DNA of 64,000 nucleotides from an uncultured bacterium (lineage in GTDB: Bacteria; Verrucomicrobiota; Lentisphaeria; Victivallales; UBA1829), in contig CASFTV010000001.1 in the NCBI GenBank assembly GCA_949297765.1, forward strand, positions 310,001 through 374,000. The letters are read 5' to 3'. Each line of letters begins with the position of its first letter. Position 1 is the stretch's first letter. Position numbers and translations under genes: made by a program. Positions 44,572-51,241 of this stretch are shown in pieces. The notes beneath the pieces were generated by a model. That model was not told where the DNA came from. It was given only the letters and a program-made list of their open reading frames with translations, and ran no database searches.

Positions 44572-45174
44572 ATGCGGAATCCTCGCCCGCGAATCCGGTA
44601 CGGAGAGCGGGCTTCCTCCATTGTGGAAGCCATGCTCTGCATGCTTCTGCTTCTGCTTCTGACGTTCGGGCTGCTCCAGTTTTTCTATTATGCGGTGGCC
44701 CAGATGGTGACCGATTATGCCGCATTCCGGGCTGCCCGTTCCGCAACGGTCGGATTCCGGGAAGATGCCTATCAGCGGGAGGCGCGGCTGAAGGTCATCC
44801 CCGCGGCCGGACAGATGCGCAGCCCCGTCGACCTGGTGAACGGGGATGCCTCCTCCCTCCCCTTCAAAACCGCGATTGAACAGTTCTATTATGAGCGGCT
44901 TCTTATTCTGGATTACATGCGCGGACATCAGGGAGGGCTGCGGTATCAATACTGGTGGTCGACCGATGCTTCCGACGAGCTTTCCACACGCTACAAGACC
45001 TCCTTCAGCACGGAACTGTCGAATCAGGGCGATTCGTTCACGGCGCACTCCACGTTCACAGATTATCCCTGGATCATGCCGTTCCGGGGAGCTTTCCAGC
45101 CGGAGACAAAAGGACGGCTGGATATCACCGGAGAGGCGAAAATGTCACGGCAGTCGGCTGCCTATCTGGAATGA
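44572..45174 (+). CDS. TadE-like minor pilin protein
   Basis: 200 residues from ATG 44572. A GTG at 44539 overlapping the previous stop would add 11 residues and cannot be excluded. A basic N-terminus leads to ERASSIVEAMLCMLLLLLLTFGLLQFFYY, a single hydrophobic segment with the Glu expected of TadE-type pseudopilins. The 150-residue exported domain contains YAAFRAARSATVGF, typical for TadE/TadG-like proteins. It probably initiates or stabilises the pilus. No ATPase or secretin gene is near. Confidence 0.72.
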   Translation: MRNPRPRIRYGERASSIVEAMLCMLLLLLLTFGLLQFFYYAVAQMVTDYAAFRAARSATVGFREDAYQREARLKVIPAAGQMRSPVDLVNGDASSLPFKTAIEQFYYERLLILDYMRGHQGGLRYQYWWSTDASDELSTRYKTSFSTELSNQGDSFTAHSTFTDYPWIMPFRGAFQPETKGRLDITGEAKMSRQSAAYLE

Positions 45175-45178
45175 GACG

Positions 45179-47032
45179 ATGAAGACACGGATTTTTTTAC
45201 GGCGCCGGGAGCGCGGACAGGTTCTGATACTTGCGCTGATTGCGCTGCTGATCCTCACCCTTGCCATTTTTCTGCTTCTGGACGTATCCAATGTCATCCG
45301 GGCCAAAGTGAAGGCGCAGAACGCGGTGGACGCCGCCGCGCTCACCGGAGCTAACTGGCAACGGCATACACTGAATCTGCTTGGAGAGCTGAATCTGGTC
45401 AAGGCGACCACCGTCCTGATTTCCGATTCGATGTTCGGCACGACCGCCCAGCAAGGACCGGATTCATTTCTTCAGGTCGAAAACGAGGAAGACGCCATCC
45501 AGAAGCGCGCCACGCAGATGGAGTCGTTGAGGGAAGCCTCCGACACGCTCTCTCAGATGCAGCAGAGGGCGCTGTTCATTGTTCCGCTGATCGGGTTCGG
45601 CGCCGCCCAGCAGACCGCAAAAAACAACGGGATCAATTACAACGAATCCTACGGAGACGCCGTCCGCCAGCAGATGCTCTATGTGGACAATCCGAGCAAC
45701 GTGAACCGGCAGAATATCTTCGCGCAGTATATGACGCCGGACTACATCCGGAAGAACATGTTCGGCTACAACTGGAAAAATCCCTATCTTGCCACGCTGG
45801 ACACGATCCTTCAGGGCGACGGCGACATCTCCAAAGGGATCGCCGTTCTTCCGAACGCTCAGCTTCTCGGCTCGCCGCGTGTAAAGACCTATCCGCCCAC
45901 CACCAACGATTTCGCGGGCTATCTTCAGTCCCGCTACATCTACGACGCCATCCAGTCGAACTACTGGTGCTGGCTCCGGGAACTGATCCGCATGAACTTC
46001 AGCCAGACAAACTGGTGGGGCAATCTGGTGACAGACGAGGATTCCACTTTCCGCCAGGAAAGCGAATATCTTCCGGTCTGTGTGGAGATCAAGGCTGCGC
46101 AGTCCGGCACCTGGAACACTTTGAAGGGCAGCACCCTGCTCGACGACCAGCTCAAGGAAGTCGATTACAATGCGGACAAACTCATGAATCATTACGATCT
46201 TTACGATCCGGCGTTCAACGAGAAAGGGGAAATCATTCCTTCGCAGGATACGGACCGCAAACTGAATCCGCTTCCTGTGCTCGACTGGGCGTATTACGGC
46301 TGGAAATGGAGAGCGTACGACACAACGCAGACCGCCCTCTGGGAGGATTATCTTGCTTCGCCGTTCAAACAGCAGGCGCTCTACTATTCCGGAGCGGTGT
46401 CGCGGATGGATGTGGAGGCGGAGACGGTCACGGTCACGGGGACCCTCGGCGTCAAAGGCGACCGGGACAACCGTCTCGGCGACATTTTCCGGGACAGCTA
46501 CCTGCCTCAGAGTTCGGAAGATTCCAATGCGTTTCTCCAGACCTCCTCCGGCGAAAACCGTCTGGATGCCGCGCAGACCCGTCTTCAGAACAACGCTCCG
46601 CACATCTATGCCTACGCCGTGGCGAAGCCCTTCGGCTCGCTTTCGATCGACAACGAACTTCAGCCTCCGCATCTTTCCGGCATAGTCCTTCCGGTTTTCA
46701 CGAACAGTGCGATCATCCCGACCTCGCTGGAGGATCCGGGCCGGAATCCTCTTGCGGACTATCTCTGGTTTGAATTTCTCGTGGAGTATCTTCCGACGCT
46801 CGGGACGGTCGGTTCACTGGACGAAATTCCCCAGGCGATGCAGAATAAGTACAGTTTCTACCACTCCATGCTCAAACGGCTCAGCGATCCGGACTGGAGA
46901 ACGCAGGGGATCACCTGGCTGGAAACCCCGCTCTGGGAACCGGACCCGGAAAAACCCGATGAGAAAATCCCCACCAATGAAGACAACTGCAATCCGCCCG
47001 GAAGCGTTCACTATCCGCCGGTCCTGCATTGA
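45179..47032 (+). CDS. TadG-like protein
   Basis: 617 residues from ATG 45179, four bases after the TadE-like stop. The N-terminus has the Tad putative domain: RRERGQVLILALIALLILT, then LDVSNVIRAKVKAQNAVDAAALTGANW, which is the common TadG/DUF2134 opening. The remaining 550 residues are exported, rich in aromatic residues and without a recognised domain. TadG-like proteins are thought to anchor or regulate Flp pili. It is longer than typical TadG and may carry a species-specific surface domain. Confidence 0.72.
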   Translation: MKTRIFLRRRERGQVLILALIALLILTLAIFLLLDVSNVIRAKVKAQNAVDAAALTGANWQRHTLNLLGELNLVKATTVLISDSMFGTTAQQGPDSFLQVENEEDAIQKRATQMESLREASDTLSQMQQRALFIVPLIGFGAAQQTAKNNGINYNESYGDAVRQQMLYVDNPSNVNRQNIFAQYMTPDYIRKNMFGYNWKNPYLATLDTILQGDGDISKGIAVLPNAQLLGSPRVKTYPPTTNDFAGYLQSRYIYDAIQSNYWCWLRELIRMNFSQTNWWGNLVTDEDSTFRQESEYLPVCVEIKAAQSGTWNTLKGSTLLDDQLKEVDYNADKLMNHYDLYDPAFNEKGEIIPSQDTDRKLNPLPVLDWAYYGWKWRAYDTTQTALWEDYLASPFKQQALYYSGAVSRMDVEAETVTVTGTLGVKGDRDNRLGDIFRDSYLPQSSEDSNAFLQTSSGENRLDAAQTRLQNNAPHIYAYAVAKPFGSLSIDNELQPPHLSGIVLPVFTNSAIIPTSLEDPGRNPLADYLWFEFLVEYLPTLGTVGSLDEIPQAMQNKYSFYHSMLKRLSDPDWRTQGITWLETPLWEPDPEKPDEKIPTNEDNCNPPGSVHYPPVLH

Positions 47033-47052: not shown

Positions 47053-48297
47053 ATGAAAGATTTCAAATCCATTCACTGGTTTCTGAACGAACTTCCCCGT
47101 CTTCAGAGCGAAGGAGTTCTGGAGGAAGCCGCCGCCCGGAAACTGCAGGACTATTACCGGAAAGAGCTGGAATCCACCTCCGTCCGCAGTCTTCTGTTCA
47201 TGATACTGGGATTTCTCGGAGCCTTTCTGATTGCCGGAGGCGTGATTCTTCTCACCGCCCACAACTGGGATATGCTTCCGAAAACCGGCAGAATCGTTCT
47301 CACGTTCACACCGTTCGTTCTGACGGCGGGGTTCGCCTGTTTCACTCTGCTCCGCCGGAAAACACGGATCTGGACCGAATGCGCAGCCCTGCTGTTCACG
47401 GCAGGAATCATGACACTGAATGCGCTGATCTCCCAGATCTACCATATTGACGGAACCATCTTTGATTTCCTGACATTGAATCTGTTGTTTGCTCTGGCGC
47501 TGATGTATCTGCTGGACAGCCGGGTTCTCTCTCTCCTCATCACCATCGCGCTGATCGTTTTCTCCGTTTCGAACGAAGGGGGCGGAGGACGGGAGTATCT
47601 TCCCCTGCTCTATACCGTTTTCTGGATTCCCTTTGCCGTGCATCATCTCCGGCGGAATTCCATGCTGACCCGCTATGCGGCAATCGCCGCCGCCATTGCG
47701 CTGCTCTGTTCGCGGGATGGGAATGCCGGCGTTCTGTTTCCGCTCGCCGCGGCGTTCTTCTTCTGCGGAGGACTGAATCTCCGGCGGACCGGGAAAACCG
47801 CATGGTTCCGCGATCCGTGGATTCAGACGGCGTTTGCCGGAACGACCATTTACCTTCTGATTCTGAGCAATTCAAACACGTTTCTGCGTTCGTTTCAGTG
47901 GAACGGAACGACCATGATTCTCTGCATACTGTTCGGAGCGGCGCTGATTTCCCAGATTTGCCGTTCTCCGGATGCGCTGAATCTGATGCAGGCATTTTTT
48001 GCCGCTCTTCCGTTTTTCCTGCTCCCGCTGGGACCGGAGATCCACCGGTTTGCCGGAACAGCCTTTCTTCTCCTCTCCGGGATTCTTTTTCTGATTGACG
48101 GATTCCGCAAATCGGACCTGCTTCTGCTGAATTTCGGACAGCTTCAGCTGTACGGGCTTCTGATCGTCCATTTTCTGGACAGCCGTTACAGCATTCTTGT
48201 CCGTTCGCTGGTTTTTCTCGGAGCCGGAGCCGTCTTTCTGGTTTTGAATTACGGGCTTGCGCACCATTTCCGGCGGAAAGGAGGGGTGCTTCGATGA
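47053..48297 (+). CDS. DUF2157 multi-pass membrane protein
   Basis: 414 residues. ATG 47053 is preferred, with gggagaaaagg upstream. A TTG codon eight codons earlier overlaps the TadG stop. A soluble N-terminal helix region (WFLNELPRLQSEGVLEEAAARKL) is followed by about 12 membrane helices, the first with GVILLTAHNWDMLPKT, typical of DUF2157. Family function is unknown. It ends with an ATGA overlap to a GDYXXLXY-type gene, a known pairing. Confidence 0.8.
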   Translation: MKDFKSIHWFLNELPRLQSEGVLEEAAARKLQDYYRKELESTSVRSLLFMILGFLGAFLIAGGVILLTAHNWDMLPKTGRIVLTFTPFVLTAGFACFTLLRRKTRIWTECAALLFTAGIMTLNALISQIYHIDGTIFDFLTLNLLFALALMYLLDSRVLSLLITIALIVFSVSNEGGGGREYLPLLYTVFWIPFAVHHLRRNSMLTRYAAIAAAIALLCSRDGNAGVLFPLAAAFFFCGGLNLRRTGKTAWFRDPWIQTAFAGTTIYLLILSNSNTFLRSFQWNGTTMILCILFGAALISQICRSPDALNLMQAFFAALPFFLLPLGPEIHRFAGTAFLLLSGILFLIDGFRKSDLLLLNFGQLQLYGLLIVHFLDSRYSILVRSLVFLGAGAVFLVLNYGLAHHFRRKGGVLR

Positions 48298-48866
48298 AAC
48301 GAACCATTCCGTGGCGGCTTCTGTGCTTTTTCATCATTTTTACGGCGGCACTGTGGTATCCGGTCCGGAAGATCCGGGAGTATGAGTTTCCCGCCGTTCC
48401 GCCGGAGGAGTTCCGCTTCCGGGTGACGGGAGTCGATCCGAACGATCTCTTCCGCGGACGCTATATCGTTCTGCACATTCCCGTTCCGGAACTGACGACG
48501 ACCGATCTCAATGCCGCGGGCTACCGCTTCATCGTCCTGGAACGCGATCCGGAGGGGTTTGCAAAACCGACGGTTCTGCTGCGTCAGATTGATCCGGAAC
48601 GATCCTGCCTGCGCATCCGTTATTCCGGTGTCCGGAGGGACTGGAAGGGAAATCGGCCGCTGAATACCGGACGCCATATTTTTCATTTTCCGTTCACCCG
48701 GTTCTATCTCAACGAGGAAATCGCTCCGGTGGCGGAACGTCTTCTGAACAAGGCGAAACGGGCGGAGCTTGCGGTTCTGGTCTATCCGAACGGCAACTAT
48801 GCGGTCCGGGAGCTGTACCTCGACGGAGTCCCCGTCCGGGAGGCCGTCCGGCGGGCGCGGAATTGA
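48294..48866 (+). CDS. GDYXXLXY-like membrane-anchored protein
   Basis: 190 residues. One N-terminal membrane helix (WRLLCFFIIFTAALWYPV) is followed by a periplasmic domain whose signature is DLFRGRYIVLHI, the counterpart of the GDYxxLxY motif. Members of this family commonly follow DUF2157 or DUF4401 proteins, as here. Function unknown, possibly assembly with its partner in the inner membrane. Confidence 0.75.
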   Translation: MKRTIPWRLLCFFIIFTAALWYPVRKIREYEFPAVPPEEFRFRVTGVDPNDLFRGRYIVLHIPVPELTTTDLNAAGYRFIVLERDPEGFAKPTVLLRQIDPERSCLRIRYSGVRRDWKGNRPLNTGRHIFHFPFTRFYLNEEIAPVAERLLNKAKRAELAVLVYPNGNYAVRELYLDGVPVREAVRRARN

Positions 48867-48924: not shown

Positions 48925-48952
48925 TTGAAAAATACGCAAATCATGCTACCTT
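48925..48952 (+). promoter_or_regulatory. candidate promoter of the ribF operon
   Basis: TTGAAA (48925-48930), 16-base spacer, TACCTT (48947-48952). Confidence 0.5.
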
Positions 48953-48984: not shown

Positions 48985-49950
48985 ATGAATCGAAACCGAA
49001 TCATCCGGACGGAGAGCCTGAAATCGCTGAGCCGTTACGGGATCAATAAAGCGGCGGCAGCCATCGGCGTGTTCGACGGCGTGCACCGCGGGCATCAGAA
49101 GGTCCTGAAGACGCTTCTTGAAATTGCAGAACGATCAAATGCAGTTCCGGTCGCGGTCACGTTCACACCGCATCCGCGTTCGGTTCTGAGGCCTGAAGCG
49201 TCCCCTCCCCTTCTGTTTCCGGAGGAGGAGAAGATCCGTCTTCTCCACAGCTGCGGAGCGCAGGCCGTGGTGACGATCCCTTTTACGAGGGAATTCGCGG
49301 CGCTTACTCCGGACGATTTTCTGGATCAATGCCTGCATTCCGGGACGGTCCGTCTGACCGGAGTCTGCGTCGGGAAATCGTGGCGCTTCGGTGCGGAGGC
49401 CGCGGGATCCGCCGTCGATCTCGAACGCCGGGCGCATCAGGATCATTTTATTTTTCAGCCGGTCGACGAGGTCCGCTACGGTTCACTTGTGGTCAGCAGC
49501 ACCGAAATCCGGAAAGCGGTCGCAAACGGGAATCTTGCCGAAGCGGAGGCGATGCTCGGACGGCCCTACGCTCTGTTCGGTTCCGTTGAACACGGAATGG
49601 GACTCGCAGGGAAACTGCTCGGAGCTCCCACGGCCAATCTTCATCTGGAGGCGGGCGTGCTGCCTCCGTTCGGCGTTTACGCGGTCTACGCGGGGCCGGA
49701 GGACGGAACCGGACGCGATCCGGGCATCGTCAACATCGGCATTGCCCCCACCGTCCGGAAGGAGGAGCACCCGCAGCCGAAGGTGGAGGTTCATATTTTC
49801 CGCAAATCGCTGGATCTTTACGGGAAGCGCCTTGCCGTCGATCTGATTGCGCGCGTCCGTCCGGAGCAGCGGTTTGATTCCCTTGATGCACTCCGATCTC
49901 AAATTCAAAGCGACATAGCCGCAGCCGCCGGGCTGCTGAAAGGACACTGA
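48985..49950 (+). CDS. ribF: bifunctional riboflavin kinase / FAD synthetase
   Basis: 321 residues from ATG 48985, the start that gives a normal RibF N-terminus. The FAD synthetase half (1-180) has GVFDGVHRGHQKVL and VTFTPHPRSVL, nucleotidyl-transfer blocks. The riboflavin kinase half (185-315) has GLAGKLLGAPTANLHLE, PPFGVYAVYA and VNIGIAPTV. It converts riboflavin to FMN and FAD. It probably heads an operon with the HTH-coiled-coil gene, queD and the Sua5 gene. Confidence 0.95.
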   Translation: MNRNRIIRTESLKSLSRYGINKAAAAIGVFDGVHRGHQKVLKTLLEIAERSNAVPVAVTFTPHPRSVLRPEASPPLLFPEEEKIRLLHSCGAQAVVTIPFTREFAALTPDDFLDQCLHSGTVRLTGVCVGKSWRFGAEAAGSAVDLERRAHQDHFIFQPVDEVRYGSLVVSSTEIRKAVANGNLAEAEAMLGRPYALFGSVEHGMGLAGKLLGAPTANLHLEAGVLPPFGVYAVYAGPEDGTGRDPGIVNIGIAPTVRKEEHPQPKVEVHIFRKSLDLYGKRLAVDLIARVRPEQRFDSLDALRSQIQSDIAAAAGLLKGH

Positions 49951-49953
49951 TCC

Positions 49954-50853
49954 ATGGAAGAAAAAACCTATACGGTCATCGAACTTGCCGAATCCCTGGC
50001 AGTTGCCAGAACCACCGTCAACGACTGGCTCGCCCGCTATACCCAGTACATCGACTTCAAGATGGTCGGCCGGCGCCGGGTCTACACGGAATCGGCGCTC
50101 GCGGTCCTGAAAGAGATTTCCGAACTGCGCAACCGGGGGCTTTCCGGAAATGATATTGAATCGGAACTGGCCAAGACCCATCCGGTCCGTCCGGAACCGG
50201 CCGATGCGGCGGAAACGGCAAAAACACCGGCGGAAACGACAAAAAAATCCTCCACTCAGCCTCCGGCGGAGGAGTTCGCCCTGATTGCAAAACAGCAGTC
50301 CGACGAGCTCGGCAGAATCATCGCGGAAAGTTTCCGGGATATGGCGGAACGCATGCACACGCTCGAACACAAGGCGAACCGTGCGGAGCGGAAGGTGTCG
50401 TTCGGCTACGCTCTTCTGTTTCTCCTGCTGGCGGTCCTTGTGGTGCTTTCGGCGTTCTTATTTCTCCGCCAGAGCCGTGCGGAGAAGCAGAACCGGTCTG
50501 CGGATGATCTTCAGAGGACCGCGATTCAGGCGGTGGATGACAAGGCGGTCCGTCTTTCCGGATCGGCGGATGAACTCAAACGCGGAATCCGTGAACTCAA
50601 GCAGGGGCTTTCCGTTCAGCAGAAAGAGTTCGATCGCGCGCTTTCCGAAATGAAATCCGCACGGGAAAAGGAGATTGCGGAACTCAAGGAACGCTTTGCC
50701 GCGGAGCAGAAAGCCCGCCTGGAGCAGATGGAGAAACTCGCCGGAGAAAAAGACCGCGAAATCTCCGATCTGAAGGAAAAAGAAGCCGCCTCTCTCCGGA
50801 AAATCCGGGAACTGGAACAGAAACTTGAAGAACAGAAAAAACAACTCAAATAA
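49954..50853 (+). CDS. membrane-anchored MerR-like HTH protein with long coiled coil
   Basis: 299 residues in three parts. Residues 1-60 form a MerR-type winged helix: YTVIELAESLAVARTTVNDW, then VGRRRVYTESALAVLKEI. A linker of about 85 residues (proline and threonine-rich at 70-95) follows. One membrane helix (FGYALLFLLLAVLVVLSAFL) sits near 150-170. Residues 175-299 are an uninterrupted coiled coil (ELKQGLSVQQKEFDRAL, KEIAELKERFAAEQKARLEQ). The layout is like a chromosome-anchoring protein such as RacA of Bacillus, where a MerR-type HTH is coupled to a coiled coil, but with an added membrane segment. DNA binding with membrane attachment is inferred; no partner is known. Confidence 0.65.
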   Translation: MEEKTYTVIELAESLAVARTTVNDWLARYTQYIDFKMVGRRRVYTESALAVLKEISELRNRGLSGNDIESELAKTHPVRPEPADAAETAKTPAETTKKSSTQPPAEEFALIAKQQSDELGRIIAESFRDMAERMHTLEHKANRAERKVSFGYALLFLLLAVLVVLSAFLFLRQSRAEKQNRSADDLQRTAIQAVDDKAVRLSGSADELKRGIRELKQGLSVQQKEFDRALSEMKSAREKEIAELKERFAAEQKARLEQMEKLAGEKDREISDLKEKEAASLRKIRELEQKLEEQKKQLK

Positions 50854-50869: not shown

Positions 50870-51241
50870 ATGTTTGAACTGGATGTCACGCGGGAATTCT
50901 CCTCTGCGCACTCACTGAAGGGATATTGCGGGAACTGCTCCGAAAAGCACGGACACAACTGGAGCGTACAGGTTTTCATCCGCTCCCGCCGTCTGGACGA
51001 AATCGGAATTGCCGTGGATTTCAAGGCGCTGAAACGTGAACTCGACGCCATTCTCCTGGAGCTCGATCACAAGGATCTCAATCAGATTCCTCCGTTCGAC
51101 ACGCTCAATCCGACCAGCGAAAACATCGCCATGCACATTTACAAGGTCCTGAGTTCGAAACTGGATGACGGCAACGTGAAAGTATACCGGGTGCGCGTCG
51201 GCGAAAACCACACCTCCGGAGCCAGCTATTTCGAGGAGTGA
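50870..51241 (+). CDS. queD: 6-carboxytetrahydropterin synthase
   Basis: 123 residues, the standard QueD size. It makes 6-carboxytetrahydropterin from dihydroneopterin triphosphate on the way to queuosine and 7-deazaguanine. The zinc ligands are in FSSAHSLKGY and HGHNW, and the catalytic Cys is in YCGNCSEKHGHNW. ELDHKDLNQI and SENIAMHIYK are family blocks. The start is ATG 50870 with gagaaaag upstream. It follows the coiled-coil gene by 16 bases. Confidence 0.94.
   Translation: MFELDVTREFSSAHSLKGYCGNCSEKHGHNWSVQVFIRSRRLDEIGIAVDFKALKRELDAILLELDHKDLNQIPPFDTLNPTSENIAMHIYKVLSSKLDDGNVKVYRVRVGENHTSGASYFEE

Follow-up and report, generated by a model that had tools for sequence, protein, structure and literature searches.

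A membrane-spanning MerR-type protein of the Victivallales as a candidate origin-region DNA–membrane tether

The ToxR/CadC-type regulators and RodZ each combine a cytoplasmic N-terminal HTH with one membrane helix and a domain on the outside. Among systems built on a MerR-type HTH, RacA of Bacillus subtilis is described as anchoring the origin-proximal domain to the membrane through DivIVA, its ram sites being dense near the origin (relevant parts of PMC6593407), and as binding a GC-rich site as a symmetric dimer (relevant parts of PMC5859096). RocS of Streptococcus pneumoniae and pSK1 Par both join a MerR-type winged HTH to a coiled coil; RocS is attached to the membrane, and a role as a DNA–membrane tether is proposed in the corresponding part of PMC11500499. 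BldC of Streptomyces, according to the sections of PMC5859096 that concern it, has a MerR-like winged HTH that binds cooperatively to direct repeats with its wing in the AT-rich minor groove; its DNA contacts include Thr27, Trp31 and Arg47, and Arg30 reads bases. The titles and abstract openings of papers on membrane-anchored MerR proteins, on MerR domains combined with a coil and a membrane helix, on ParABS in Lentisphaerae and on the origin or MerR proteins of Victivallis contained nothing on the protein described here.

This protein is encoded in a 64,000-nucleotide stretch of contig CASFTV010000001.1 from an uncultured bacterium of the Victivallales, a poorly known order with gut and environmental members; this whole stretch is termed the window below. 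The ORF of the membrane-anchored MerR-like protein (49954..50853, + strand, as are all the features listed in this paragraph) was confirmed, with an ATG start, a TAA stop and a length of 299 aa. It begins with a cytoplasmic MerR-type winged HTH (residues 6-75; 49969..50178), identified by Pfam MerR_1, AlphaFold2 and fold matches to GlnR, CueR, RacA and TnrA, in which residues 19-28 form the recognition helix and residues 35-45 the wing. There follow a disordered linker (residues 83-107; 50200..50274; pLDDT < 50), a cytoplasmic pre-membrane helix seen in the AlphaFold2 model (residues 108-151; 50275..50406), a single membrane helix at about residues 152-175 (50407..50478; hydropathy and AlphaFold2) and a far-side, probably periplasmic, coiled coil (residues 179-299; 50488..50850; hydropathy and charge, periodicity and AlphaFold2). 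The AlphaFold2 model, computed with 45 family sequences, has a pLDDT of about 96 over the HTH, disorder at 83-107 and helices at 108-202 and 205-298, the former running through the membrane segment. Conservation peaks in the HTH (mean top-residue fraction 0.65) and, as a second island, in coil residues 241-262 (0.56), against 0.27-0.44 elsewhere, and is lowest in the linker (83-107) and at the C-terminal end. The conserved island of the coil, delimited by conservation at residues 215-256 (50596..50721; Q222, F226, F248, A249), is also recognisable in two HTH-less f6 homologs. Since 14 columns, including that of the start Met, are invariant among 36 HTH sequences aligned from across the order, the architecture is not a product of chance. 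The alignments comprised 21 of 30 loci (A1) and 45 (A2) and 36 (A3) sequences drawn from 45 homologs and the window protein; L077, truncated by a contig end, was excluded from A2 and A3. The Pfam matches of the protein include no effector-binding domain after the HTH, so that its layout is not that of a classical MerR regulator, and no DUF536, HTH_25 or ParB.

All 46 proteins examined have a single membrane segment. Because K+R in the 15 flanking residues is mostly richer on the N side (higher in 40 proteins, equal in 4 and lower in 2), the topology, which was derived from hydropathy and charge counts and not from experiment, places the N-terminus inside and the coil outside. The 121-residue tail after the membrane helix lacks proline and shows a helical periodicity of hydrophobic residues (3.6) that 0 of 5000 shuffles reached, and a helical period was found at p<0.05 in 36 of 45 homologous tails. 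The coil spans about 95-120 residues in the window protein and 96-250 in homologs, and its conserved island makes a partner on the outside possible. In coils of a rumen clade (L062, L066, L071 and others), repeat units of the type SGSVSGMEGRV stand just past the membrane helix, with copy numbers that differ between genomes. The design put forward in a preliminary description of this DNA, with a MerR-type HTH, a linker, a membrane helix and a coil of about 120 residues in one chain, is borne out by Pfam, hydropathy, periodicity and AlphaFold2, and its placement of the coil on the far side agrees with the topology predicted from flanking charge in the 46 proteins.

Pfam MerR_1 matched residues 6-69 at 28.1 bits (cut-off 21.6) and was found at E<=1 in 36 of 36 homologous N-termini scanned; in the protein's own 4.2-Mb genome it matched this protein only. 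The HTH-only model aligned with the solved structures of GlnR-DNA (Z 10.7), CueR (10.3), TnrA (9.9), RacA (9.9 for the DNA-bound 5i44, 9.8 for 5i41) and pSK1 Par (8csh, 7.3). Several MerR regulators thus match at a Z equal to or above that of RacA and, rows less than 1 Z apart being tied, the comparison establishes the MerR fold and not kinship with RacA. The resemblance to RacA noted earlier, a MerR-type HTH together with a coil, accordingly stands in the sense that RacA-DNA is among the nearest folds, tied with MerR regulators. Sequence searches of the PDB gave weak matches only, and against viral structures the full-length model had two matches at E<0.001, to a Bacillus phage and a virus MerR-type protein. 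The preliminary description had named the loss of DNA-contact residues from the HTH of homologs as something that would count against it, and on this point the outcome is mixed. In an alignment made by eye against what we take to be the BldC sequence, T21, W25 and R41 correspond to Thr27, Trp31 and Arg47 and are invariant, whereas the position of the base-reading Arg30 is held by an invariant Asp24; the phosphate-contact and wing positions are therefore kept and the base-reading residue is not.

The HTH family is present in 88 of 137 Victivallales genomes, mostly in single copy. In a sample of the phylum, 50 of 288 genomes had a match at E<=1e-4, of which 48 belong to the Victivallales (E about 1e-29 or better) and the remaining two are weak, MerR-like matches (about 1e-5). 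A recognition-helix pattern recovered 45 loci in a collection of 84,980 species, with titles naming Victivallales, Victivallis, Lentisphaeria, Lentisphaerae, Lentisphaera or the generic 'uncultured bacterium', and in one case Verrucomicrobia; these loci came from an alignment query, and a scan of the genome contigs with the single protein returned none. One of them (L090) is from the cultured Victivallis vadensis DSM 14823. As judged by sequence matches, the family is found only in the Victivallales. Those apparent relatives beyond the order that were fetched proved, by eye, to be RmuC-, AtpF- and OmpH-like coils and not homologs.

In 46 of 46 loci the gene directly follows ribF (riboflavin kinase/FAD synthetase; 48985..49950, +, in the window; Pfam FAD_syn and Flavokinase) on the same strand, the gap being -14 to +34 nt in 44 loci and 181 and 228 nt in the other two. 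A PTPS-family gene (50870..51241, +; Pfam PTPS), which begins 16 nt downstream and is itself followed by a Sua5/YrdC gene, is likely part of the same operon within the window's genus. Among order genomes without the gene, ribF is present in 23 of 25, and where readable it is followed by other genes, except in L094. This locus and L125, from two genomes of family f6, encode HTH-less homologs with a membrane helix and a coil motif judged similar by eye (L094, 2360-2848, + after reverse complement, overlapping the 3' end of ribF; L125, 2460-3074, -). In one MAG (L051 and L058, also G009) the gene is present twice, with a copy of ribF preceding it each time, which the 6% contamination of that MAG could explain. 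Just upstream of the ribF operon of the window, on the same strand, a gene for a DUF2157 membrane protein overlaps a GDYXXLXY gene (47053-48866), and the inner part of a large ORF at 44846-47032 resembles, by eye only, a secreted pilus-assembly (TadE/TadG-like) protein. A search for a riboswitch upstream of ribF in the window and four loci gave no Rfam match save one tRNA.

In several families, repeated AAATGACGG boxes stand upstream of ribF. The candidate site is an 11-bp direct repeat, two copies of AAATGACGG(N)2, and at this spacing the tandem reads AAATGACGGATAAATGACGG. Its core, TGACG-N6-TGACG, occurs 10 times in the 695,089 nt of the 45 loci, where about one occurrence is expected, and all 10 fall just upstream of ribF (one across its start codon) in 10 of the 45 loci. 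The other 35 loci have no tandem at ribF, and none was found in the 18 readable ribF upstream regions, of 23, from genomes without the gene; the inspection of ribF upstream regions covered loci with a readable ribF start, that is, 32 and the window. The window itself has a promoter-like TTGA...TGNTANNNT element upstream of ribF (48925..48952, +), which is a consensus match only and is aligned in three same-genus loci, and has no TGACG tandem in the ribF promoter or elsewhere. Other tandems of 10-12 bp, sought in the ribF promoters without TGACG, gave nothing consistent. The presence of repeats in ribF promoters suggests that some members of the order autoregulate the operon.

Genome-wide, the repeat is enriched where the gene is present. 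The loose pattern WWTGACGN6TGACG outnumbered its reversed control by 149:60 in 23 genomes with the gene, against 11:24 in 13 genomes without it (p 1e-5); for a stricter pattern the counts were 95:23 in 27 genomes with and 4:18 in 23 genomes without the gene (p 3e-8), and 66:17 on exclusion of G045, G185 and G295. Counted per genome, the strict pattern was above control in 19, equal in 5 and below in 3 of the 27 genomes with the gene, as opposed to 2, 10 and 11, respectively, of the 23 genomes without it. The association also holds inside genus g30 (11:3 in five genomes with the gene versus 1:16 in 15 without; p 9e-5). Genomes with Asn at recognition-helix residue 23 were enriched, with 127:42 hits to control (n=16), and those with Thr were not, with 16:16 (n=6; p 0.006), there being no reading for G237 and G313 and no locus for G016; this association is suggestive only, because Thr is confined to few lineages, among them rumen genus g6 and family f3. 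The window's own genome has four loose sites (control 0) and one strict site, and G036, a genome of family f2 with the gene and N23, has none genome-wide. Neither the conservation of the sites nor the synteny of the genes is independent of descent.

The placement of the sites points to the replication origin. G045 has its GC-skew minimum, where negative skew gives way to positive, at 1.675-1.680 Mb, and 15 of 29 tandem sites lie <=125 kb from it, a concentration reached by none of 200,000 random placements. For G185, which belongs to another genus and is assembled as one 3.2-Mb contig, the skew minimum is at about 2.065 Mb, with the opposite change between about 0.5 and 0.64 Mb; 11 of 16 sites lie <=160 kb from the minimum and 16 of 16 within 0.55 Mb, spanning 1.518-2.323 Mb. 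As the loose pattern shows no excess over control genome-wide in G185 (16:18), only placement is telling there. A comparison of all 5-mers at spacings of 6-40 ranked the TGACG pair at spacing 11 first in both origin regions (28 versus 2.3 expected), and control stretches of 120 kb and 341 kb contained no such pair. A second mark of the origin is recF-dnaN with its neighbours, which is found near sites in three genomes (G185, G295 and G057); in G002 and G013 it is dnaN with its neighbours that lies near them, and in G005 the neighbouring block. Genes around sites in G048, G041, G295, G057 and G138 have relatives in the two origin regions, with 82 origin versus 3 control matches, compared with 5 versus 11 for other regions of the same genomes; in this comparison G295, which is of the genus of G185, supplies most matches, and several control contigs are short. 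The clustering itself rests on two contiguous genomes (G045 and G185), in which it was noticed after the pattern, together with synteny in fragmented genomes. The dnaA gene is far from the GC-skew origin in both, at 3.05 Mb on contig C1 of G045 and at 0.537 Mb, near the terminus, on C1 of G185, while dnaN-recF is close to the origin in these bacteria. In L088 (262-2466), dnaN and recF are about 6 kb upstream of the ribF–MerR operon, which makes it probable that in some genera the gene itself lies near the origin. The site lists mix strands, and hence there is no obvious KOPS-like skew.

With the ParB profile TIGR00180, none of the 31 order genomes tested had a match at the cut-off, as against 8 of 14 control genomes; weak matches below the threshold were seen in 11. 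Neither origin region contained any of four parS-type patterns, which were 12 to 16 bases long (the 16-base pattern was searched in G045 only), and a looser 10-base parS core occurred once, in the origin region of G185. A palindrome that we take to be of the RacA type was likewise absent from both origin regions. The idea that the protein substitutes for RodZ was ruled out by separate HTH_25 genes in 58 of 61 relatives.

We propose, with a probability of roughly 0.55, that the protein is an origin-region DNA–membrane tether with the candidate repeats as its sites, similar to RacA and RocS and itself membrane-spanning. The computations establish the architecture, the family, the link to the ribF operon, the enrichment of the repeat, its association with the gene and its clustering at the origin; from these we infer that the protein binds the repeats, the mode in which it would do so, that it may move or hold origins and what its coil may do. 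The HTH would recognise the 11-bp repeats as direct tandems, AAATGACGG(N)2AAATGACGG, and probably occupy them in a head-to-tail arrangement, with the wing taking the A-rich part in the minor groove and TGACGG lying in the major groove. The bound repeats would be scattered across a region of a few hundred kb that surrounds the origin, and the linker and transmembrane helix would hold the DNA-bound domain at the inner membrane, while the outside coil may multimerise the protein, meet an envelope partner or both. In part of the order, the protein would also bind its own ribF operon promoter, resulting in autoregulation. Because probable sites crowd at the origin in the two best genomes, the protein may be a one-piece origin–envelope tether. 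The DNA–envelope tether of the preliminary description has gained independent genomic support from candidate sites at the origin of two gene-carrying genomes, whereas binding by the protein is a step that we infer. Its further suggestion, that the coil could sense the cell wall, stays speculative.

The same observations can be read in other ways. The protein could be a membrane-bound one-component regulator of the ToxR/CadC kind, in which the coil senses the outside and the HTH controls a regulon including ribF, the origin bias then reflecting where regulon genes are placed. MerR proteins are mostly regulators, the gene is tightly coupled to ribF and the ribF-promoter repeats adjoin -35-like boxes. 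Moreover, of the 28 sites in the origin regions, 12 fall between crudely called ORFs, about three times the expectation from about 14% non-coding DNA, so that some of the sites may be ordinary promoters. However, the other 16 of 28 lie inside called ORFs, a regulon would not be expected to gather at the skew minimum, as the sites do in two genera, and the HTH-less f6 homologs persist with their membrane helix and coil; we consider such a regulator unlikely, though well worth keeping in mind.

In our estimate it is improbable that some other protein, whose gains and losses follow those of the gene, occupies the origin repeats while the MerR protein acts otherwise: the window's own operon is without the repeat and the link of gene and repeat is drawn from sequence, but the repeats occur in the promoter of the gene's own operon in 10 loci, the gene–repeat association holds inside one genus and there is a weak link with recognition-helix residue 23. 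Most doubtful of all is a MerR-fold domain that has lost DNA binding and docks proteins at the membrane. The HTH-only model does match CbpM (Z 9.2) and DafA (Z 7.5), which are MerR folds from chaperone complexes, off DNA, and Asp occupies the base-reading position; against this stand the invariant phosphate-contact and wing Arg positions and the repeat evidence from enrichment, gene association and origin clustering. We therefore retain the origin-region tether as the preferred reading. Its extension, that in the Victivallales, where no chromosomal ParB is recognisable, one membrane-spanning MerR-type protein is the origin anchor on centromere-like dispersed repeats, its periplasmic coil possibly coupling origin position to the cell wall, is more tentative and in our view falls a little short of even odds. 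The proposal bears on the positioning and segregation of origins in bacteria that lack ParABS, and it offers a named gene, a short DNA element and a cultured carrier.

By the features tested, the protein is not a member of the RacA, RocS/Par or BldC families; by analogy, RacA would be its nearest working model, RocS its nearest architecture and BldC its nearest DNA-binding mode. With RacA it shares a MerR-type HTH and a coiled coil and, in the proposed reading, a DNA–membrane link; its candidate sites cluster near the origin in G045 and G185 and would correspond to the ram sites of RacA if the protein binds them. However, RacA reaches the pole through DivIVA, has a sporulation role and recognises a symmetric GC-rich site, whereas the protein here has its own membrane helix (46 of 46 proteins) and candidate 11-bp direct repeats. 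In RocS, a C-terminal amphipathic helix comes after the coil, and DUF536 is present; here a spanning helix sits between HTH and coil, and hence the coil is probably outside, unlike that of RocS. BldC differs in having 68 residues, no coil or membrane helix, 9-bp repeats, a role as a transcription regulator and a base-reading Arg where the present protein has Asp. The ToxR/CadC-type regulators and RodZ have the same layout as this protein, with HTHs of different families. If the tether reading is true, one chain would do what RacA and DivIVA do jointly, and its transmembrane link could pass information between chromosome and envelope.
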